IMG/VR virus record: IMGVR_UViG_3300009605_000148
Span: 1 to 23,713 of that record
Direction: 5' to 3' (one strand)
DNA: 23,713 bases
Source of the DNA: a virus
Below, one piece after another: positions 3,001 through 23,713 of the stretch; positions within the stretch are counted from its first letter, which is position 1; every line of letters begins with the position of its first letter. The translations under genes and the position numbers were made by a program. The notes beneath the pieces were generated by a model that was given only the letters and a program-made list of their open reading frames with translations, was not told the DNA's origin and made no database searches.

Positions 3001-6000
3001 TGCTTCCCAAATTACCCTTATGTAAATCATAGTATCTAAAAACAGGATTACCAAATTGCCCCACATTGGACATAATACCCCCAACCCCGCCATCAATTGT
3101 CGCACTAACTGTTGCATGGTGTTCAAAAGAATATGAAATTGGTTTAGTAGCACTAGAATACTCCGAATTAACCATATGAAGTATTCCACCTAAACCTAAC
3201 CCTTGAGTATTTAGGAAATATATTTGGTGGTTGCGGTCGCCTTGAGTATTAGTGCTACTAATATACAAATCATCATTATCGGCTAAAGCAACAGGTAATG
3301 CTCTATCAAATAATATTTCCCATTCTGTAATTGTAGCAGTAGCAGCAGTATAATCCGAAACCTCTATTCTTTCGACTGTCCCAATATATGTTCCGTCGGA
3401 TTTAAATACCGGCTTTCCTCTCCCTAAATGTAAATAAATTGTTGCAGGAAGATTAACATTTGTGCCATCAATTAATACTCTTCCTGTGCTTCCTTTAGAA
3501 ACTGCGCCTTTAACATTCATTGTGGTATCAGTAAGTGTTCCCTTAAATCTAGTATCTAACGGGTTAGAATCTACTCTAGCCAAAATTGCTGGACAATTAG
3601 GAGCCAATTCTATAACTGTATCAACCTCTTGCCCATCAATCGAAACAATATTAAAATTAGTCATAGAACTAACAGTATGAACCTCCGAATGAGTTATTGG
3701 TGAAGATAATTCATCGGATAACTTGGACATAAATGGTAATGTTGTATCAAAGATTGCTATTGGGGAATTTATGTAATAACCCCTTGCATTCACATCACTA
3801 TGGGCAGAAGTTTCAATTAATTTTGCTCCGTCTGTTTCTGGAATACCACTATTCTTAGTAAGTTTCAATCCAGAATTAAAGTAAAGACCCTTATTTGCTG
3901 CGCCCCTTAAAGTAGTTACAGTTTCACTTGCTGATGGGCTGGCTTGAATTGATTTACCAAAAGCGACATAATCATGAGTTGTTTGTTTATTAATTGTGTC
4001 ACTAGCCGCTAATGTTACTAATGCTCCTTCTTCTAATGTAACTGTTGTTCCAGAAACAGAAGATGCTCTTCCAATAAAAGAATAAAATTCACTTACTCCT
4101 AATGGCCCAAATAATAAATCACCGGCAGAAATTACATCTGAATGCGCTGTGGTAAACGAAGTATCACCTACATTAATTATTCCCGTAGTGGTTGTTGTGC
4201 TGCTAGAAATAATCAAGGGTATTATACTTGAATAAATCCAATCCTTAGAATACAAGAAATTTTTATTAATAATTGGCCCAAGTAATTTACTAATATCGTT
4301 TCGGCCATGAATAGTATAAGTAAATGCTCCCTGTTCAATGCTTTCTTCAATATTTTCAATAGTGCCACTAAATATTATTTTATCTACAGTAAATGAGCCA
4401 CTAAAATAATCTAAAATATTTGGATAATCTAAAGATTCTTTTTGATATAATGTTTCTCTTGGGGTGGTAATTTTTACATATCCATTTACTGAATCACCAT
4501 ATTTTACAGTAAAGCGATGACCAGAATATTCTCCACCCATAAGTGTTAATTCTAAATTATTAATTCTAGATTCCGAAAAGGCGGTTAACGCCACCCCATT
4601 GTAATTTACTGCGGTAGCCGCAACAGTAACAGAACTTTTTGTTATGTGGTTTACTTCAGTATCAATGGGAAAATCAACCAAAAGAGTGTTTGTTATCTTA
4701 CTCCATCTTTGTCTTTTAGCAGTTCCATCTACAATATTTTCTTGTAAATTACCCACAGCGAAAGCCACATCAGTATTTTTTCTATATTGGTTTATTGTAA
4801 CTACTTGCTCAATTGATGCGGTTCCCATTCCATATGCCGGAGCAGCAATAGCAGAAATACGATAATGATAGTCATTAATTTTAATTGTGTCATAAGTTGT
4901 TCCATTGTATAAAATAATGCGTAAGTCTTGGTCTTGACTAAGTTTAGAAAAGGTTAAAGTTGCAGTTCCAGATGTTCCATTAACCGTTCCAAATAAATTA
5001 GCATCATTCTTAGCGGTAATGCTTCCCTCAGCAATAGTATTTCTAACTTTAAGTTTATCAAATCGTTGAATTTTACTACCCATAATTCTATGAGGGTCTA
5101 AAAGTTTTCCTTCAAAATAAGTGCCAGTTTTAGTTATTGATTGAAAAACACTAGCATCCATAACTCTAGGAATGAAATTATTTTTTGTGGCAGAAGTTCC
5201 ATAATGAATATATCTAGTTGGGCCGGTAAAAGAACCACTAGTAGTAGAAGCAATTTTATTATCAGTAGTCCTTTGAATGTTTTTAAAACAGGAGTTCCAA
5301 GCAGTATAAGTGTTTGTGTAATTAATAGCAGAAGATGAACCATATCTTTCAGTTGCTCCATCAGTTATTGATGGGGTATCATTTACTCTATTTGTGTCCA
5401 CTAAAGTAGCAGAAGTAGTATAAGGACTATAATCCTTTACTTCAAGACCATAATCCTGCTCTGTAACAAAATGAGTTATAGCATGAGTTTCTGTTGTGCC
5501 ATCCCATCTCGAATAATATAGGGCATACTTCGTATTGTGATTTAGTTGATTATTTTTATCCAGACGAGTGTTATAGAAGTAAAATAGCGGCCTAGAACAG
5601 TTAGTGTAAATGTCATGGCGAGAATCCGAGCCGTCACCGCTTCCCTGCCCCCCATACATGAGGGCAACCACGCTAGTATCACTCAATAGGGGGCCTTCAA
5701 AGATGGTAAATTTGGTATCTTTTGGTAATTCATCCCCATAGGCAGGTTCAAATTCAAATGAATCCCCTAAAGCATCATCAGTAGTAATTTCTTTAATGCG
5801 AGCAAAATGATGCTTTTTGTAATCATCGGCAAATATCATTACAAAAAAATCTTGAGTTGTGAGAGATAGAGCAGAAAGGTCTGTTCCTATAGCAGTAACA
5901 GTATCATAACATTTTATTCTATAACCCGGAGTATTCTCTAAATTATCTAAATAAGATGCTACTGTTGCATCGGATGGGTAAATTCTATTTAAAGTAGAAT

Positions 6001-7330: not shown

Positions 7331-8050
7331 TTAAAGACCTATTGTGATTGCTACTTCAAAATCCATAGTAAATGTAACGAAAGGGCTACCACCATCAAAA
7401 CTCGTATTAAAATTTCTAATAAACCCTTTAACACCTTCTATATTTTCTGTATTAGTAGTAATCGGTACAGGAAAGGCTGACCCACCAATAGAACCCCTAG
7501 CGTCTAAACCGGCAATAGTTCCTGCATCTCTAACTCCCCAATTAAAAGGAAGCATTTTTGCATCTTCAAGAACAGATGTTGCACTTAACCCGGTATGATA
7601 TTCCCAATGTTTATTAATATATGATGGGTAAAGAATTACCATTTCATTTAAATTTTGTTGTTTTTGCATAAATGAAGAATCAACATAAGAATGTAATAAT
7701 TGTGCAATCTCTTGTGCTGTCATATTACGAGTTGCTCCCCCATCTACCCCAACATCTTCTGTAGCAATTTCCCCATCTTTAAATTTCTTTTTAACCTCAT
7801 GTTCAGTAATAATACCAGTAAGATTAATCGTTTTAGATGCCATACCTAAATCTATTGCTAATGAAGTAGATTCACCAGTGACCATACCAGAAAAAGGAAC
7901 AGGAAAGGCTGCTACGGTTTTTCCTGTTGTAATACTAACTGATTCACATTGTAACCAAATTCTATTATAGTTACCATCATCTCCGGGGTTATTAGCCACT
8001 TTAATAAATACCCACGCATTATCAACACCGGTTGTCGGGCCTATTGTCAT
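7331..8050 (-). CDS. Putative distal tail / baseplate protein, 239 aa
   Basis: I do not recognise the family with certainty. The protein begins MTIGPTTGVDNAWVFIK and has a central stretch, AAFPVPFSGMVTGESTSLAI followed by DLGMASKTINLTGIITEHEV (about residues 49-88), typical of beta-rich tail proteins that set a reference frame for the tail tip. The C-terminal region (GVKGFIRNFNTSFDGGSPFV, then a strand with TFTMDFEVAI) is again beta-like. A short helical segment (about 110-140) lies between. Start ATG at 8050 overlaps the tape-measure stop by four bases (ATGA), preceded by a GGGGG run as ribosome binding site. The position immediately after the tape measure is that of distal-tail (Dit-like) genes in siphoviruses, and this is the basis of the call. 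The repressor-to-lysis genes that might otherwise sit here are absent. Confidence 0.55.
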   Translation of the reverse strand: MTIGPTTGVDNAWVFIKVANNPGDDGNYNRIWLQCESVSITTGKTVAAFPVPFSGMVTGESTSLAIDLGMASKTINLTGIITEHEVKKKFKDGEIATEDVGVDGGATRNMTAQEIAQLLHSYVDSSFMQKQQNLNEMVILYPSYINKHWEYHTGLSATSVLEDAKMLPFNWGVRDAGTIAGLDARGSIGGSAFPVPITTNTENIEGVKGFIRNFNTSFDGGSPFVTFTMDFEVAITIGL

Positions 8051-9720
8051 AATCTAACCCCCGATGCCGTTGTTCTGTTAATTTCTCTACTAATCATGGA
8101 ACCAACCTTTTGTGCAATTTGTCTTAATTCGGTATCGGAAGCACCCAACCGACCATTTACATGAACATTAATTGTGTTACCCATAGCATGATTTGGAGTA
8201 ACATTAGCACCACCGGGTAAATTAACTAATTCCGGGCCTTGTTCTCCTACTAAATATTGCCCACTACGCCCAACAAAACCACCCCTTGCTAATCGGCCTT
8301 GCGCTTGCATAGCAGCATATTGAGGGGCAATAGTACCAAAAACAGTATATTTTTTAGGCACTCTAACTCCCTTTTCGTTAACATATCCCCAATACACTTT
8401 TTCTCCAGTAACGGGGTCAATTTGAAACATGGTTGATTGATTACCTAATGTTGCTACTTGTTTAACTGTTTTCCCCGTTTCTTCTATATTTGATATAACC
8501 TCGGGGTCTATCCGGTCTTGATTAGCCCATTTTTTTGCTTGTTCAACAGGGCTTTTGTTTTTCCACCAAGCAATAAACATATGATATAGTTTTTCTAAAC
8601 CATTCCATAACATTATGGGGCCTTCATTAAGAATCCAATCAAATACTACTCCAATAACTGTAAGTGCTAATGTGAATAATAAGGGGATAGATGCTAAAAG
8701 TGTGCCTATTACTGCCCATGCTAATGACCCTATTAATTTCATTACTGCAACAATTGTGTCCCAAAATGATGCTTTGGGGTCTTTGAGTAATGCCCATACT
8801 GATTGAATATTTTCCCAAACAGAAACCCATAGTGGTTGAATAAAATTCCAAAAATTAGTGAACATAGATGATACTGTATTTTTCATTTTCTTGGCGGATT
8901 CCCAAAAAGATTTAATAAAGGGCTTAAGAATAATTATCGCTAAGAAAATTGCGGCACCCCACAATAAAAATTGTCCAATAATTATTAATGCCCCTTTAAA
9001 ATAAGCCTTAATCATTTTTCCTAAACCACTCGCTAATTCGCCCACTTGAGTAGCAAGTTTACCAATTTTTGCCCAGCGTATTTTAAAGAATTTTTCTACT
9101 CCTGTATATTCTGTAAAATTATGTATTATATTACCCTCATAATCTGTAGTTTGGGTTAATTCACCTACACCCCTATCAGCAAGTAATTGCGCTCTTTGTA
9201 TTGCTTCTGGTTCATAATCAGACATAAATGCGGGAATGGATTTTAATAAGTCCTCAGTAGGGGCATTATCTTTGATATCTTTCATTTTTTTTGCTTGAAC
9301 ATCATATGCTTCATTTATTTGTCTAGCCATTTCTATTCGTGCATATTCTTGACCATACATGGCTTCTAATCCTCTATAGATTTCATTATTAATATTAAGT
9401 TCAGATTCTTTCTGTTTATTAATATCTTCATAAACTTTAACTTCTTTTGCTAAATTTGCTATTTGCTCCATTCTTTGTTTTCTTTGTTCTATACCTGATT
9501 CATTCCATGAAGTTATGGTAATACCAATTGCTTTAATATAATTTAATTGTTTCCAAAGGCCTGTTCCTGAAGCAAAACGCATAATAACTTCCATTAGTGG
9601 GCCACCTTTGGCCGCTTCACCAAAAGAAGTAACTAAATTCTTAGCAGGTTCATTTGCATCATGTAATAACTGAACAATGTGACTCATTGTTTTTTCAGTC
9701 TCTTTTAACTCAGAAACCAT
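8047..9720 (-). CDS. Tail tape measure protein
   Basis: A 557-residue protein. The N-terminal 240 residues are helical and charged. Two strongly hydrophobic stretches follow, at about residues 243-270 (ALIIIGQFLLWGAAIFLAII) and 325-362. The C-terminus has the signature shared by many tape measures: RGGFVGRSGQYLVGEQGPEL, then VNLPGGANVTPN, then a beta segment INVHVNG (about 479-523). Tape measures fill the tail tube, set tail length and help DNA entry. At the roughly 1.5 Angstrom per residue of siphovirus tape measures, 557 residues imply a short tail of the order of 80 nm (inference). Start ATG 9720 shares one base with the stop of the frameshifted chaperone (TAATG), and AGGA lies upstream. 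It directly follows the tail-assembly chaperone, as in lambda-type gene order. The call is secure; the lengths of the membrane-like segments are estimates. Confidence 0.9.
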   Translation of the reverse strand: MVSELKETEKTMSHIVQLLHDANEPAKNLVTSFGEAAKGGPLMEVIMRFASGTGLWKQLNYIKAIGITITSWNESGIEQRKQRMEQIANLAKEVKVYEDINKQKESELNINNEIYRGLEAMYGQEYARIEMARQINEAYDVQAKKMKDIKDNAPTEDLLKSIPAFMSDYEPEAIQRAQLLADRGVGELTQTTDYEGNIIHNFTEYTGVEKFFKIRWAKIGKLATQVGELASGLGKMIKAYFKGALIIIGQFLLWGAAIFLAIIILKPFIKSFWESAKKMKNTVSSMFTNFWNFIQPLWVSVWENIQSVWALLKDPKASFWDTIVAVMKLIGSLAWAVIGTLLASIPLLFTLALTVIGVVFDWILNEGPIMLWNGLEKLYHMFIAWWKNKSPVEQAKKWANQDRIDPEVISNIEETGKTVKQVATLGNQSTMFQIDPVTGEKVYWGYVNEKGVRVPKKYTVFGTIAPQYAAMQAQGRLARGGFVGRSGQYLVGEQGPELVNLPGGANVTPNHAMGNTINVHVNGRLGASDTELRQIAQKVGSMISREINRTTASGVRL

Positions 9721-10288
9721 TATTTCATCTTCCTATTCATTTCTTCTGCTTTATATTTCTCTACTTCAGTATGCAACATTAATAAATCTAAAACTAAAGT
9801 GGCTGGCATATTGTAAATTTCCATTGGGCTAATAGAGAAGGCTGTCGCTAGACTATAAACCACAAATAGCGACGATATATCAGGGCTAACGGCCCCGCCT
9901 CTAATCGCCCGCCTTATTGTTCGTTTTTTTCTTCATCCCCCTGCGAAAAACCAGCAAGGGGGTTAGGGAGAATTTCTTTTAATTGGCTCCCAACATAAGG
10001 ATTAAGTTTAAGAATTTCAACGGCGGATAAACTAGGCTCAGTTTTCTCAATGAAATTATCCACAATAAAACGATACATAGCGTTTAAATCTATGTCCATT
10101 TCTTGCGTTTTAGAATTTAACTTCATTACTGAAGTCATCGCCTGTTCAACTTGAAGCCATGTGGGTTCTTTAACCCATATTTTCAAGTATTCTTCTTTAT
10201 CTGGGTGAACTCGAACATATTGAGGTTCGGTTTCAGTTTTAATAAACAAGTCACTTTTGTTTGTTACTACTTTTTTTCCGTTTAACAT
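9720..10288 (-). CDS. Tail assembly chaperone GT-type fusion made by -1 frameshifting
   Basis: If ribosomes slip back one base on the A AAA AAC heptamer (9929-9923), the upstream frame continues for 67 more codons, from CGA at 9923 to TAA at 9722-9720, giving about 189 residues in total. The added part reads RTIRRAIRGG, then a helical domain with SLFVVYSLATAFSISPMEIY, then MPATLVLDLLMLHTEVEKY and a basic end. This helical, Glu/Lys-ended domain resembles the T part of lambda-type G-GT chaperones, which recruits tape measure and tube subunits. The extension has no start codon of its own in a sensible place, occupies the whole gap before the tape measure, and ends with a stop that shares a base with the tape-measure ATG. 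Frameshifting is inferred from sequence only. Confidence 0.8.
9871..9909 (-). other. Possible nested stem-loop downstream of the slippery site
   Basis: The stretch after the heptamer is unusually G/C-rich for this AT-rich window. By eye, GGCGAU (9909-9904) can pair with AUCGUC (9876-9871), enclosing a hairpin GGGGC-CGUUA-GCCCU (9896-9882). The outer stem begins 13 bases after the heptamer, somewhat farther than the 5-9 bases usual for a stimulatory structure, so its role is uncertain. No folding program was run. Confidence 0.35.
9914..10288 (-). CDS. Tail assembly chaperone, G-type (unshifted product)
   Basis: A 124-residue protein starting MLNGKKVVTNKSDLF and ending GFSQGDEEKNEQ. Residues 20-45 are rich in strands with a YVRVHPDKEEYLKIWVKEPT pattern; the rest is helical (MYRFIVDNFIEKTEPSLSAV, then EILKLNPYVGSQLKEIL). 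Such small proteins between tube and tape measure are the G component of siphovirus tail chaperones: they coat the tape measure during tube assembly and are not in the virion. A GTG three codons upstream (10297) is possible, but the ATG at 10288 has AGGTG six bases before it, so I prefer ATG. The gene overlaps the preceding lysine-rich gene by about 38 bases. The acidic, unstructured C-terminus carrying the slippery heptamer is the usual arrangement for this family. Confidence 0.85.
   Translation of the reverse strand: MLNGKKVVTNKSDLFIKTETEPQYVRVHPDKEEYLKIWVKEPTWLQVEQAMTSVMKLNSKTQEMDIDLNAMYRFIVDNFIEKTEPSLSAVEILKLNPYVGSQLKEILPNPLAGFSQGDEEKNEQ
9923..9929 (-). promoter_or_regulatory. Slippery heptamer A AAA AAC for -1 ribosomal frameshifting
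   Basis: In the chaperone reading frame the bases run GAA GAA AAA AAC GAA CAA TAA. The heptamer fits X XXY YYZ with X and Y both A, so both tRNAs can re-pair after a one-base backward slip. It lies nine bases before the zero-frame stop, and the -1 frame opens into a 67-codon chaperone-like extension. Confidence 0.8.
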
Positions 10289-10385
10289 TTTTCGCACCTA
10301 CTAACTTACTTGTCTTGGTGGACTTTATTTTCTTTATTGGTTTTTCCTTATTACGCTTAAGTGCTAATTTTTCCCACTTATCCAT
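10251..10385 (-). CDS. Lysine-rich 44-residue protein of unknown function
   Basis: An ATG at 10385 follows GGTGAT by three bases, and that GGTGA contains the TGA stop of the tail-tube gene, so initiation is well supported. The product has 16 Lys and 2 Arg in 44 residues, with motifs such as KPIKKIKS and KNVKRKKSSNKQK, only three acidic residues, and no hydrophobic core. It is probably disordered and nucleic-acid or polyanion binding, but I cannot name a function. It overlaps the chaperone start by about 38 bases. Longer reading from 10460 would run back into the tube gene and lacks a ribosome binding site. It might be a translational-coupling leader for the chaperone rather than a protein with its own role. 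Confidence 0.6.
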   Translation of the reverse strand: MDKWEKLALKRNKEKPIKKIKSTKTSKLVGAKNVKRKKSSNKQK

Positions 10386-10389
10386 AATA

Positions 10390-12189
10390 TCACCCCTGTA
10401 ATACCCAATGGGTTTTAACGGTGCAAGTATTAAGATTTCTAGGCATAACGGTGGCATCAACAGTAATTGGTCCTTTATCCTCTGGTATTGTCCAATTACT
10501 TGCCGTTAAGTGATAATCTTGGAATTTCATTATTATTTGCTCACCATTAGGCTTATCAAATTGTAAATCAATAGTGCTAGTGCCAGAAGCAACCTCCGTT
10601 TCTGTAAATAACTCTTGAAATAGTGCATCATCGGTTACTATAGCCGTAAATGTTAATTCATAATTTCTTTGTCCCGGTAATGCGGATTTAATATCCTTTG
10701 ACCCAACCCCAACAAATCTCTTATCCATTAAATTATTATTAATAGTTAAACTTAAGGTTGAAATTTTAAGGAATTGCTGACCAAATATATTAAAGGTTCC
10801 ACTTGAAAAGAAGAAAGGTTCAAGTAATTCTGCATCCCCCGATGGGGCATAATTAAATAAATCAGTATTAGTGGTTGTTCCTGCTCTTGCTTCATATTTA
10901 GTTGTGCCTATTACTTGGTTAATATCAGTAACTCCCCTTGTATTCAAATCAAGAGTCATTTTAACCTCTTCATTTTCATTTGCTGTCATTGTTAATGTAT
11001 TAACTCTATTTCCTCTAGCAACCCTAACAAAAGTATTAGATTCAGCCTTTGGGCTGAACATTAAAGTTTGGCTTGATAATGAACCACCAGTTGTTGCGTC
11101 TGATAATTCAAATTCAGTAACACTAGTAACAGAAGCAACAGTAGCACCTACTGGAATACCTGTTCCCGATACTGTATCACCAACACTAATTACTGTGCCT
11201 GTTCCCGCTGTTGAAGTATGAGTAATAGTTGGGTCATTATTATATGCTCCACCACCGATAGTATGTTGGTCTGTTAATAATGAAGATGGATTTTTTGCAA
11301 TTGATTGTTCAAGGGCAAATGAGGGTAAATCTTCTCCTTCTAATTCAATAAATCTATATGTAATTGCATTAGTTATATCAATAGCAGTGGAAGTTGTTCT
11401 AGTTAATAATTCTAAATCCGTATATGTATCTGAAGTTTTTAGAACAGGGGGAACTAAAGTAGTAGAATCTTTTGCTGTCCTATAAAAGATTGGCCCAGTA
11501 TTAACATGGTCCTCAACAGCATCATCAGTTCCACCACCCACATTCGCTGTATCAATATACACATCATTATTATTAGCAGCATCATATTCCGATGTAGGGG
11601 CAGTAGTAGCAAATGTGCAAGTAACTTGGTCACAAGAGCCTAACGCATAATAAAGCCATGCAGCATGATTAGCCACCAAAGCAATATTACCACCAGAAGC
11701 AGTTTTAATTCCCTTATACTGATGAGTAAAATTTCTTGAACCACCAAGAGCCAAATTTAATTGTTTCATTTCTACATCAACATTAGGAAATGTTCCTGTT
11801 TCTACTAATCCTAACCAATTATCTGCATTAAGCCGAGCAATTGCGCTATTTTTTTCTCCGGGGCAAGGAGTTCCATAACTTCTAATTACTGCAAAACTAC
11901 TAGCATCAGCAATAGTAATTGAATGAGCAGGAGAAATAGTAAAGGCTGTGGCAGTATTACCTGTAATAGTATGGGTTGAATCAGGAACAGTAGCAGATGG
12001 TGATTCATATAGGTCAAGAGTAGAACCTATGTATAAATCAGGAACCAATGCAAAATTACTATTAAATAACGCATCAGTTTCTAAAGTTGTAGAGTCACTA
12101 GAAATATCTAATAACACAAACAAATCCACTTCAGGAACAAGGGTTAAACTTGCTCCGCTTCCTAAAAATATATCGGTGTTTACTGCCAT
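10390..12189 (-). CDS. Major tail tube protein, large multi-domain form
   Basis: A 599-residue protein. The segment SAIARLNADNWLGLVETGTF to GIKTASGGNIALVANHAAWL (about residues 116-176) and the C-terminal DLQFDKPNGEQIIMKFQDYH, TVDATVMPRN region (about 545-590) look like tube-protein strands. The order tube, chaperone with frameshift, tape measure supports the role of building the tail tube. At 599 residues it is much longer than simple tube proteins (often 150-300), because of apparent beta insertions: one at about 40-105 (TITGNTATAFTIS) and one at about 318-375 (GDTVSGTGIPVGATVASVTS), a module type common in phage structural proteins. Start: ATG 12189, preceded by GGGAG; the in-frame GTG at 12198 lies next to that GGGAG and is less likely. 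The stop TGA forms part of the next ribosome binding site. Confidence 0.75.
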   Translation of the reverse strand: MAVNTDIFLGSGASLTLVPEVDLFVLLDISSDSTTLETDALFNSNFALVPDLYIGSTLDLYESPSATVPDSTHTITGNTATAFTISPAHSITIADASSFAVIRSYGTPCPGEKNSAIARLNADNWLGLVETGTFPNVDVEMKQLNLALGGSRNFTHQYKGIKTASGGNIALVANHAAWLYYALGSCDQVTCTFATTAPTSEYDAANNNDVYIDTANVGGGTDDAVEDHVNTGPIFYRTAKDSTTLVPPVLKTSDTYTDLELLTRTTSTAIDITNAITYRFIELEGEDLPSFALEQSIAKNPSSLLTDQHTIGGGAYNNDPTITHTSTAGTGTVISVGDTVSGTGIPVGATVASVTSVTEFELSDATTGGSLSSQTLMFSPKAESNTFVRVARGNRVNTLTMTANENEEVKMTLDLNTRGVTDINQVIGTTKYEARAGTTTNTDLFNYAPSGDAELLEPFFFSSGTFNIFGQQFLKISTLSLTINNNLMDKRFVGVGSKDIKSALPGQRNYELTFTAIVTDDALFQELFTETEVASGTSTIDLQFDKPNGEQIIMKFQDYHLTASNWTIPEDKGPITVDATVMPRNLNTCTVKTHWVLQG

Positions 12190-12221
12190 TTTATTCACAC
12201 TCCCGTTTAATTACAAACGGA

Positions 12222-17084: not shown

Positions 17085-17312
17085 CTAATTTAATTTTTGT
17101 AATACTGCTTGTAATTCTTCCTTAATATGAGTTAAATTTAATTTCACATGATTAGGATTTATTGGGTTTTCGGGCATAGTAGATATGTTATTTTCTATTT
17201 CCCCTATTAAACCTTCAATCAATTCTTTAATAGTTCCTAATTCACGCCTAGACTCATCAATTTGCTGTAAGTTATCCCCAATATTTTTTTGTATAATTGT
17301 TTCCCATTCCAT
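17085..17312 (-). CDS. Helical 75-residue protein downstream of the GTPase
   Basis: Starts at ATG 17312, overlapping the GTPase stop as TAATG. The sequence MEWETIIQKNIGDNLQQIDE, ELGTIKELIEGLIGEIENN, then a Pro-rich turn (TMPENPINPNHV) and LTHIKEELQAVLQKLN describes a helical hairpin, likely coiled coil, acidic overall. The coding region sits between two near-identical 25-bp sequences (17058-17082 and 17305-17329), so it may have been inserted or duplicated as a unit. Adjacency and translational overlap with the GTPase make it a candidate partner, regulator or effector of that GTPase. No family recognised. Confidence 0.65.
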   Translation of the reverse strand: MEWETIIQKNIGDNLQQIDESRRELGTIKELIEGLIGEIENNISTMPENPINPNHVKLNLTHIKEELQAVLQKLN

Positions 17313-17329
17313 TAATAATCATCCACCAT
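17305..17329. repeat. Direct repeat copy A (GTPase 3' end)
   Basis: On the minus strand it reads ATGGTGGATGATTA followed by TTAATGGAATG. It covers the last codons of the GTPase (MVDDY, stop) and the start of the 75-residue gene. It differs from the copy at 17058-17082 at three positions, and the two copies lie exactly 247 bp apart. Confidence 0.7.
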
Positions 17330-17980
17330 TGTTAATACTCCACGATAAACCATTTCCGGGTCAGACTTTGCACTTATTATGTATCTAAAGGTTGGGATTC
17401 CCCGTTCTTGGAGTTTTTGCATACCATAACGGAACGGTTCAAAAATAGGGTGTTTGTCGGGTGGCCCGTCGTATTCGATATTTTTCCAGAGGTCATATTT
17501 ATTCGCCCATAATCCTATTGCTAGTGGATAATCATGATGTTTTTTCTTTTTAAGTTTATGATTATCCCGCCAATAATCATCACAAATTAAATCTACTAAA
17601 TAATGCCATGCTAATTGATTTTGCATATTTGCTGTATTAGTTAAATGTCTATCATCAATCATAAAAATAATATATTTAACATGACGCTTTCTCATATCCT
17701 TTTTCCAAAGATTCCAATATTGTGATTCACCGCCAACATCTGATGTTTTAACTGTATGAGCATTACCATCCATTTTAACAAATTTTCGTAATGGTTTATG
17801 TAAGCCTACTGTTCTCTTTGTTATTTCCGGCACTTCACCCCTAGTTCGTAATTGTTCATGTAAAGTTGTTTTTCCTACTTGGCTTGCTCCATATATTCCA
17901 AAATTAATTGCGTGAAATTTCTTGTAAAGTGATGCTATTCCTTCCACACATATTACTGCGAACCCTGCGAGAACCGACAC
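17312..17980 (-). CDS. Arf/Ras-like small GTPase encoded by the virus
   Basis: A 222-residue P-loop GTPase with all five G motifs. G1 is GASQVGKT (31-38). G2 is Thr57 in KRTVGLH. G3 is DVGGES (81-86), followed by QYWNLWKKDM. G4 is ANKYD (159-163), within IGLWANKYDLW. G5 is SAK (203-205). The DVGG with the following LW, the TVG switch I and the ANKYDL segment resemble Arf/Sar/SR-beta proteins more than translation-factor or Era-type GTPases. The position matching the catalytic Gln of Arf is Glu85, so intrinsic hydrolysis may differ. A hydrophobic N-terminal stretch (SVLAGFAVICVEGIASLYKK) could be a membrane helix analogous to the Arf amphipathic helix. About 45 residues between the IIFMIDDRHL strand and G4 form a long basic insertion. 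Start GTG 17980 lies five bases after GGTGAT, whose TGA ends the preceding membrane-protein gene. The targeted process is unknown. Confidence 0.85.
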   Translation of the reverse strand: MSVLAGFAVICVEGIASLYKKFHAINFGIYGASQVGKTTLHEQLRTRGEVPEITKRTVGLHKPLRKFVKMDGNAHTVKTSDVGGESQYWNLWKKDMRKRHVKYIIFMIDDRHLTNTANMQNQLAWHYLVDLICDDYWRDNHKLKKKKHHDYPLAIGLWANKYDLWKNIEYDGPPDKHPIFEPFRYGMQKLQERGIPTFRYIISAKSDPEMVYRGVLTMVDDY

Positions 17981-22232: not shown

Positions 22233-23713
22233 TCACTCAAGCCCTTCAAATGATAAATTATTATACTTATCATGTGTAATATCCCACACTCCATCATCCG
22301 ACGCCTCATTAACGGGTTTTGTTTCTGTTCCTGTAAAGGCTAACCAATAATTTTCGTCTTTAATGGGTAATACTCTAAAATGTAATTTAGTATTGAATTT
22401 ATTACCAGACAACATATATTCATGATAACCATGCCGTTGCACACCTAACTCTAATTTACCTTGGTCAATTAATTTATCTCTAGACATTTTAGATTCTACT
22501 CTTGCTGGAAATCGCTTTGATTTACCAAATAAGTTGAAAATATCATCTACTGTATTTATTTTAATTGTCCAAGCAAGTAATTTATCGGTTTGAATTAAAA
22601 ACTGCAAATCCCCATCTTCCCTCTGATATAATTTAAATTTAGCATCACGAGTCTCTTCGGGAGTTTCATATTTAGCAATAATATCTTCTTCTACTTTAAA
22701 TTTATCTTTTTCTATATGAATGAAAAATGATTCGCTAGTATCAGTTGAACCGGTTTGGTTTATCATATAATTTTTAAGCCCTTTTTTATTAGAACGGAAT
22801 ACCTCTTCATAAAGTGGAGCAGTTTGTTTATTATTTAGTAAATATTTATCTATTTGAGTAATACTTGATTCCCCTCTATCTTTTAAAAAATTAACTATTG
22901 ATGTGCGTAAGAATCCTTTCTTTTCTTTGTAAATTTCTTCAATTTGTTCTTTCCAAAGGTCAATATCTATAATTGCATTTTTAGACATTAAGTTATATCT
23001 ATCAAAGGTAATAAATCCATCAAGATTTGCTTTTACTATGGTTTCTCCGTGAATATAGTCAGTAAGTAGCACTCCTTTGGTTAAAGCCTCAGTCTTGTAT
23101 GATAAAGATTCCTTTGTATCAGCCGCTAATAATTTAATAGTAACTAATTTATCAGGAGCAGTAACTTCTGGCAATTCAATTACTTGAGCATTAAATATTC
23201 TAAACCCTTTGGGAGATTGTTTTACTTCATCCACCTTCACTCTCACAATTGTTCCTTTTTCTACTTCTATTTTAGTATTGACTGAACGCCCAAGAGGAAT
23301 ATAGGAATTTTCACCATATTTTACAGATTTTATGTTTTTACTCTCTTCGGGAGTAAGTGGGCCAGCCCCAAGAAGATAATTAAACATTTTTGATTTAGTA
23401 GCCTTAAAATCCAAGGCGATTAAGTCTAAATCTACAAATTTCTTCCATTTTATCCACTTTGGATTCTTTTTTGTCCCAACAAAATAAGTAGATTCAATAT
23501 CCTTAATAACTACACCCTCAGCAGATGGAATTTTCATAATTTCTTTAGCATATTCTTCCACTTCTGCTAAACTATCAGCAATACGGGTGTCTTTTTTAGA
23601 AGGAAATGCTAATTTTTCATCGGAATGTTGAGAATAATTATTAAAAAGTAATTGAATCCTTTCTTTTAGTGGTTTATCAGTAAAATCATCATCATTATGT
23701 CGCATAATATCAA
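22233..23713 (-). CDS. ATP-dependent DNA-ligase-like protein with extra C-terminal region, 5' end outside the window
   Basis: The frame is open to the right edge and no start is proven; ATG 23705 is probably internal. At the edge, DIMRHNDDDFTDKPLKERIQ matches the region around ligase motif III. Counting from that Met, EGVVIK (63-68) is motif IV and KWIKWK (83-88) is motif V, followed by an OB-fold-like segment up to about 190 (GTIVRVKVDEVKQSPKGFRI). The adenylation lysine (KxDG motif I) would lie outside the window. Residues about 190-490 are not part of standard small ligases; they include a possible winged-helix segment (SITQIDKYLLNN) and a C-terminal region (KLELGVQRHGYHEYMLSGNK) that I could not assign. 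The gene would seal nicks in viral DNA. It directly precedes the protease gene, an odd place for a replication enzyme. Confidence 0.7.
   Translation of the reverse strand, partial: DIMRHNDDDFTDKPLKERIQLLFNNYSQHSDEKLAFPSKKDTRIADSLAEVEEYAKEIMKIPSAEGVVIKDIESTYFVGTKKNPKWIKWKKFVDLDLIALDFKATKSKMFNYLLGAGPLTPEESKNIKSVKYGENSYIPLGRSVNTKIEVEKGTIVRVKVDEVKQSPKGFRIFNAQVIELPEVTAPDKLVTIKLLAADTKESLSYKTEALTKGVLLTDYIHGETIVKANLDGFITFDRYNLMSKNAIIDIDLWKEQIEEIYKEKKGFLRTSIVNFLKDRGESSITQIDKYLLNNKQTAPLYEEVFRSNKKGLKNYMINQTGSTDTSESFFIHIEKDKFKVEEDIIAKYETPEETRDAKFKLYQREDGDLQFLIQTDKLLAWTIKINTVDDIFNLFGKSKRFPARVESKMSRDKLIDQGKLELGVQRHGYHEYMLSGNKFNTKLHFRVLPIKDENYWLAFTGTETKPVNEASDDGVWDITHDKYNNLSFEGLE

Follow-up and report, generated by a model that had tools for sequence, protein, structure and literature searches.

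A very probable programmed -1 frameshift with a conserved three-part signal in the tail assembly chaperone gene of a magrovirus-like archaeal virus

The window (the whole stretch of 23,713 nucleotides of viral DNA analysed here) contains 193 nt between the zero-frame stop of a tail assembly chaperone gene (G) and the ATG of the tape-measure gene, and the question raised by this locus is whether these nucleotides are translated and, if so, how. The initial annotation proposed a programmed -1 frameshift at the heptamer A AAA AAC, joining the chaperone to an extension (T) in the -1 frame, and on the evidence presented below the locus of this magrovirus-like tailed archaeal virus very probably uses programmed -1 ribosomal frameshifting as in lambda G-GT.

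Layout of the locus and identity of G and T

All of the genes and elements described here lie on the minus strand. The zero-frame G open reading frame occupies positions 9914..10288 and ends with a TAA stop at 9916-9914; an in-frame GTG is also present at 10297, but the ATG at 10288 is preferred as the start, and the protein beginning MLNG from this codon has the same starting point in close relatives. The 3' end of G reads ...CAG GGG GAT GAA GAA AAA AAC GAA CAA TAA in the zero frame, with the A AAA AAC heptamer at 9929-9923 in the correct X XXY YYZ phase, as the initial annotation had stated. The distance to the stop, previously given as nine bases, is 6 nt from the end of the heptamer or 13 nt from its start. 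The T extension runs for 67 codons in the -1 frame (9723..9923), from CGA at 9923 to a TAA at 9722-9720, and has the predicted translation RTIRRAIRGGAVSP...NRKMK; the last A of its stop also opens the tape-measure ATG (9720). The open -1 frame, the base shared by stop and start and the 193-nt interval were thus all found as first described.

The gene order is tail tube, G, T and tape measure, with the overlapping G and T frames immediately preceding the tape-measure gene. The tail tube protein gene, just upstream of G, is at 10390..12198 (PF18906 Phage_tube_2, E 3.6e-14), while the tape-measure protein (8047..9720, 557 aa) matches phrog_1535 and other tape-measure families with a best E of 2e-8. 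A Ras/Arf-like small GTPase is also encoded among the head and tail genes, at 17312-17980 on the minus strand (Pfam Ras, E 5e-5).

G is a tail assembly chaperone on the basis of its PHROG match, its fold and its gene order. The protein matched the tail assembly chaperone family phrog_25860 (E 1.3e-6), and the only match to G by tblastn among 50,697 phage records was gp40/41 of HCTV-2, a tail assembly chaperone annotated as a joined CDS. The AlphaFold model of G (pLDDT 83.5) gave a Foldseek match to the tail assembly chaperone of the haloarchaeal virus HHTV-2 (E 2e-7, TM 0.72), and a fold search of the PDB with the same model returned nothing significant (the HK97 chaperone 2ob9 was at E 2.5).

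In the T alignment of 59 sequences (A3), the residues Y23, P33 and P40 were invariant, and Ka/Ks was 0.17-0.49 in most close pairs. By comparative genomics T is therefore conserved as a protein in the -1 frame, under purifying selection. It is predicted to be a compact segment of four helices (AlphaFold pLDDT 93.6). A T profile matched the T domain of HVTV-1 weakly, and in a search of viral folds the best match was a 56-residue viral protein (E 1.7e-3).

The slippery heptamer across related loci

Two scans of viral contigs, the second of which retained 80 loci from 409 candidates, gave together with the window a total of 125 loci, some contigs having been fetched twice. Counts were made on a non-redundant set of 67 loci at 90% DNA identity, made up of heptamer-bearing loci. 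The comparison of relatives for heptamer and frame, which had been put forward as a check with the initial annotation, showed an in-phase X XXY YYZ heptamer within the -1 overlap in 122 of the 125 loci, and no case among the 125 in which G and T were fused in a single frame. The three exceptions (L092, L095 and L096) are near identical to one another and have T in the -2/+1 frame. Across the non-redundant loci the zero-frame stop lies 7 to 52 nt past the start of the heptamer and the extension is 67-81 codons long. Heptamer, phase and extension are thus kept while the heptamer sequence and the position of the stop drift, which supports a -1 frameshift joining the chaperone to its extension.

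The heptamers of the 67 loci were AAAAAAC (49), AAAAAAA (6), GGGAAAC (5) and GGGAAAA (2), with GGGAAAT, AAAAAAT, TTTAAAA, AAAAAAG and GGGAAAG seen once each. In the long open reading frames of the non-redundant loci the background rate of in-phase heptamers was 0.0074 per codon (711 in 95,665 codons); the occurrence of a heptamer in the short overlap at all 67 loci corresponds to a naive log10 p of about -88, a value which ignores relatedness and comes from a set preselected for the heptamer. Among the 56 loci whose A-site codon specifies Asn, 54 use AAC, compared with a background in which AAC makes up 24% of Asn codons, and the E. coli dnaX site, A AAA AAG, occurs at one locus only of the 67. 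This heptamer preference may be tied to the tRNAs of archaea.

These sequences bear on the possibility that RNA polymerase rather than the ribosome slips, so that mRNAs that had gained one A (or lost two) would be translated normally into GT. The window does have a run of seven As, and polymerase is known to slip on A-runs (in bacteria, where 9 As or Ts follow one another; PMC5009743). However, relatives with G GGA AAC/T/A/G or T TTA AAA have no long homopolymer at the site, the favoured A-site AAC shortens the A-run compared with AAA or AAT, and slippage by polymerase would not explain a selected match to the anti-Shine-Dalgarno (anti-SD) sequence or a hairpin in the mRNA where the ribosome would meet it, both of which are described below. 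As the heptamers vary between A AAA AAN, G GGA AAN and T TTA AAA, ribosomal slippage is favoured, and transcriptional slippage is considered very unlikely.

Stimulatory elements upstream and downstream of the heptamer

The initial annotation overlooked a Shine-Dalgarno (SD)-like element upstream of the heptamer and a hairpin downstream of it, which are the more informative part of the locus. In the window the SD-like element is AGGGGG at 9937..9942 (minus strand), 7 nt upstream of the heptamer. Its conservation was most apparent from codon choice: Gly a few codons before the heptamer is encoded by GGG in 43 of 44 loci (GGG background, 11% of Gly codons), Glu at the same place by GAG in 20 of 21 (background 15%), and the commonest codon preceding GGG or GAG is CAG for Gln (28 loci), although CAG accounts for 14% of Gln codons. 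The resulting element is AGGGGG or AGGAGG, with AGGTGAT in a few redundant loci. The 3' tail of archaeal 16S rRNA, CACCUCCU, is complementary to all three, this being a general tail that may differ from that of the host. With this general tail the predicted anti-SD duplex had a mean of -10.7 kcal/mol, compared with -1.9 kcal/mol elsewhere in G. A first test by synonymous recoding gave a weak result (median 7%) since GGT GAT is itself a good partner for the anti-SD, and the codon counts were adopted as the more telling measure. The comparison of genomes supports the element as a conserved, putative stimulator. One non-redundant locus (L031) has a weak element. SD sequences precede the starts of most genes in the window, and the host would therefore be expected to use SD pairing.

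In 66 of 67 loci the SD-like core ends 6-9 nt before the heptamer, slightly closer than the 9-14 nt between SD and heptamer at bacterial -1 sites (PMC5009743), while its distance to the stop varies. This spacing is relevant to a second alternative, in which T is a separate gene with its own start, or is reached by termination and reinitiation, the SD-like element serving coupled initiation. SD sequences near the ends of genes can serve such coupling (PMC5009743), and about one third of the non-redundant loci do have an ATG, GTG or TTG within 6-12 nt of the heptamer start, in some cases overlapping the stop. In the window, however, the first start codon in the T frame comes after 66 nt, past the conserved N-terminal region of T (its first ~20 residues), and many loci have no start codon in this frame for 50-123 nt. 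The SD spacing is fixed relative to the heptamer but varies relative to start codons and to the stop (7 to 52 nt past the heptamer start), and conservation of the heptamer would be needless for a separately initiated gene; we regard independent translation of T as highly improbable. An artefact of sequencing or assembly, or the decayed remnant of a gene after G, can practically be dismissed, since, although indels are possible in single-record metagenome observations, the arrangement recurs in 122 of 125 loci (67 non-redundant at 90% identity) and T is under purifying selection.

Downstream of the heptamer, most loci can form a long two-tier hairpin that begins about 0-9 nt after it and has a median of 20 pairs; in the window the predicted stem-loop is at 9868..9913 (minus strand). 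Stability was compared with that of synonymous recodings of the segment that preserve the T protein. Over the 67 loci the mean minimum free energy (MFE) was -18.1 kcal/mol observed and -9.0 kcal/mol recoded (mean z -3.1, Stouffer -25), and the empirical value was at or below 0.05 in 81% of loci; these significance values treat related loci as independent and are hence optimistic. For the window hairpin z was -3.6 to -3.8, and none of 200 synonymous recodings was equally stable. Control segments 123-183 nt downstream gave z of about 0 and no structure signal.

RNAalifold found no consensus structure on an alignment of 28 sequences (A1, MAFFT) because bulges shift the register, and it was replaced by folds of each sequence against the synonymous controls and by a covariation count in one fixed register, defined from the individual folds, over 54 gapless sequences. 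In this register 68.8% of cells were paired (62.1% shuffled, 42-54% slid), 126 cells were altered on both sides (59 shuffled, 44-71 slid) and the covariation score was 0.327 (0.226 shuffled, 0.146-0.174 slid), the slid controls being those that keep relatedness. Several pairs vary through U-A, C-G and G-C at third codon positions of both arms. Both the recoding z and the covariation thus mark the stem-loop as a conserved candidate stimulator. The signal is weak or absent (z above about -1.4) in about ten of the 67 loci, including four with the stop adjacent to the heptamer, and the hairpin is therefore not obligatory.

In the frameshift mechanism proposed, most ribosomes would stop at the zero-frame TAA and release G. 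A minority would pause, with AGGGGG paired to the 16S anti-SD and the stem-loop at the mRNA entry, and the two tRNAs on AAA AAC would slip to AAA AAA; translation would then extend across T, a helical domain of 67 codons, yielding GT. On the lambda model (PMC5009743), G would coat the tape measure and T would recruit the tail-tube protein, both G and GT being absent from the virion.

Natural variants, known systems and the virus

The signal is likely to have undergone at least two evolutionary departures, one being loss of the hairpin with a stop adjoining the heptamer and the other a lineage switch to -2 frameshifting. In four loci (L018, L020, L022 and L028, around 4345-4351) the stop follows G GGA AAY or A AAA AAT with no bases between, the SD-like element is retained and the hairpin is lost (mean MFE -5.0, z +0.6); slow termination perhaps replaces the hairpin at these sites. 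HCTV-2 resembles them, in that its stop adjoins the heptamer and there is no hairpin. The hairpin is also absent from L117, which keeps the SD-like element.

The initial annotation had named relatives with a disrupted heptamer and an intact extension among the cases that would speak against it; the sole lineage in which the -1 arrangement is disrupted (L092, L095 and L096) has not lost T but carries it in the -2/+1 frame. These loci (L095:2825-3100) have one base fewer after A7, which shifts T, still intact, to that frame, and they keep the A7 run, the SD-like element (-12.1) and the hairpin (z -2.5). Judged from sequence, a switch from -1 to -2 frameshifting is probable, and a -2 slip on A7 fits the arrangement, with a +1 shift as a possible alternative. 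The tail chaperone of phage Mu uses a -2 frameshift (PMC5009743) and in this respect resembles these three loci, whereas the window and nearly all of its relatives use -1.

G-GT frameshifting itself is not new and is ordinary for tailed viruses. The locus resembles lambda G-GT in having a tail chaperone, a -1 shift towards the end of G, a T extension and the tape-measure gene next, the likeness being one of architecture; it differs in its likely archaeal host and in the conserved three-part signal. It also resembles E. coli dnaX, which has an upstream SD, an A-rich heptamer and a downstream stem-loop (PMC5009743), but dnaX is a different gene with A_AAA_AAG, whereas AAC is strongly favoured here and the ribosome would be archaeal. 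The signal combines a putative SD stimulator of bacterial type with heptamers of mammalian type.

Among archaeal viruses, -1 G-GT frameshifting has been reported for HVTV-1, HCTV-1, HCTV-2 and HCTV-5 (PMC5009743, PMC8211752), all four of which show the same arrangement annotated as a joined CDS, and a frameshift has been proposed for Hardycor1 (PMC7911831). The site A_AAA_AAC has been reported for HCTV-2, as summarised in PMC5009743, which cites Sencilo 2013. Homology to the haloarchaeal chaperones is seen for G (HCTV-2) and weakly for T (HVTV-1), the -1 architecture is common to them, and the HCTV-2 heptamer is identical to that of the window. In HCTV-1, HCTV-2, HVTV-1 and HCTV-5 the sequence downstream of the heptamer folds no more stably than the synonymous control (z 0 to +2.4), and their anti-SD match ranges from weak in HCTV-2 through moderate in HCTV-1 to good in HVTV-1 and HCTV-5. 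In the latter two (L142:15378-16132 and L143:15378-16132) a GGAGG lies 10 nt upstream of G GGA AAG, with an anti-SD value of -9.3. The only archaeal -1 frameshift with experimental support is that of Saccharolobus solfataricus fucA1 at A_AAA_AAT (PMC8211752), a cellular gene of one species in which the site is not conserved in relatives; here the signal is found across a virus group. A 2021 review lists this single well-studied archaeal case and annotation-level cases in haloarchaeal viruses (PMC8211752).

No report of frameshifting in a magrovirus was found in the open literature searched, an earlier mention of the SD-like element or hairpin in subscription papers being possible, and what appears to be new is a three-part signal resembling that of dnaX and conserved across a group of archaeal viruses. 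The initial annotation had expected a clear case with this heptamer to be informative about recoding in archaea; the expectation stands for the conserved three-part signal, while the heptamer in a G-GT gene had already been reported in HCTV-2. The combination of SD, heptamer and hairpin has so far been known mainly from bacteria, and here dozens of diverged genomes support it, with base pairing in its elements and with variants that occur in nature. Given this breadth of support, a response of elongating archaeal ribosomes to internal SD sequences and entry-site hairpins, similar to that of bacteria, becomes testable; if true, the anti-SD of the elongating archaeal ribosome would scan the mRNA as it does in bacteria. 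Its interest is to specialists, as a three-part signal with natural variants on presumably archaeal ribosomes. The reading also corrects tail-gene annotation in a common group of ocean viruses, in which T is likely to have been missed or called as a short separate open reading frame.

An archaeal host is well supported by sequence comparison, and the hosts are very probably marine archaea. The major capsid protein (MCP) matched only haloarchaeal and methanogen-associated viruses among the 50,697 phage records, and G was not found in host genome contigs. The features that define Magrovirales here are a genome of 90-100 kb, a split PolB, an ATP-dependent DNA ligase, a chaperonin, an HK97-type capsid and the lack of a tail sheath. 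Both of two relatives, G009 (96 kb) and G015 (87 kb), encode PolB and an ATP-dependent DNA ligase, PolB being present as two partial open reading frames in G009, and G015 encodes a Cpn60 chaperonin. PCNA was not found in 18 records, and MCM gave matches below the cut-off only. PolB, ATP-dependent DNA ligase and chaperonin have been described for magroviruses of Poseidoniales (PMC10768690). The virus is accordingly called magrovirus-like, and its host may belong to the Poseidoniales. At the edge of the window (22233-23705, minus strand) lies the C-terminal part of an ATP-dependent DNA/RNA ligase-like protein; relatives encode ligase-domain proteins of ~820-840 aa alongside a second, ordinary DNA ligase.
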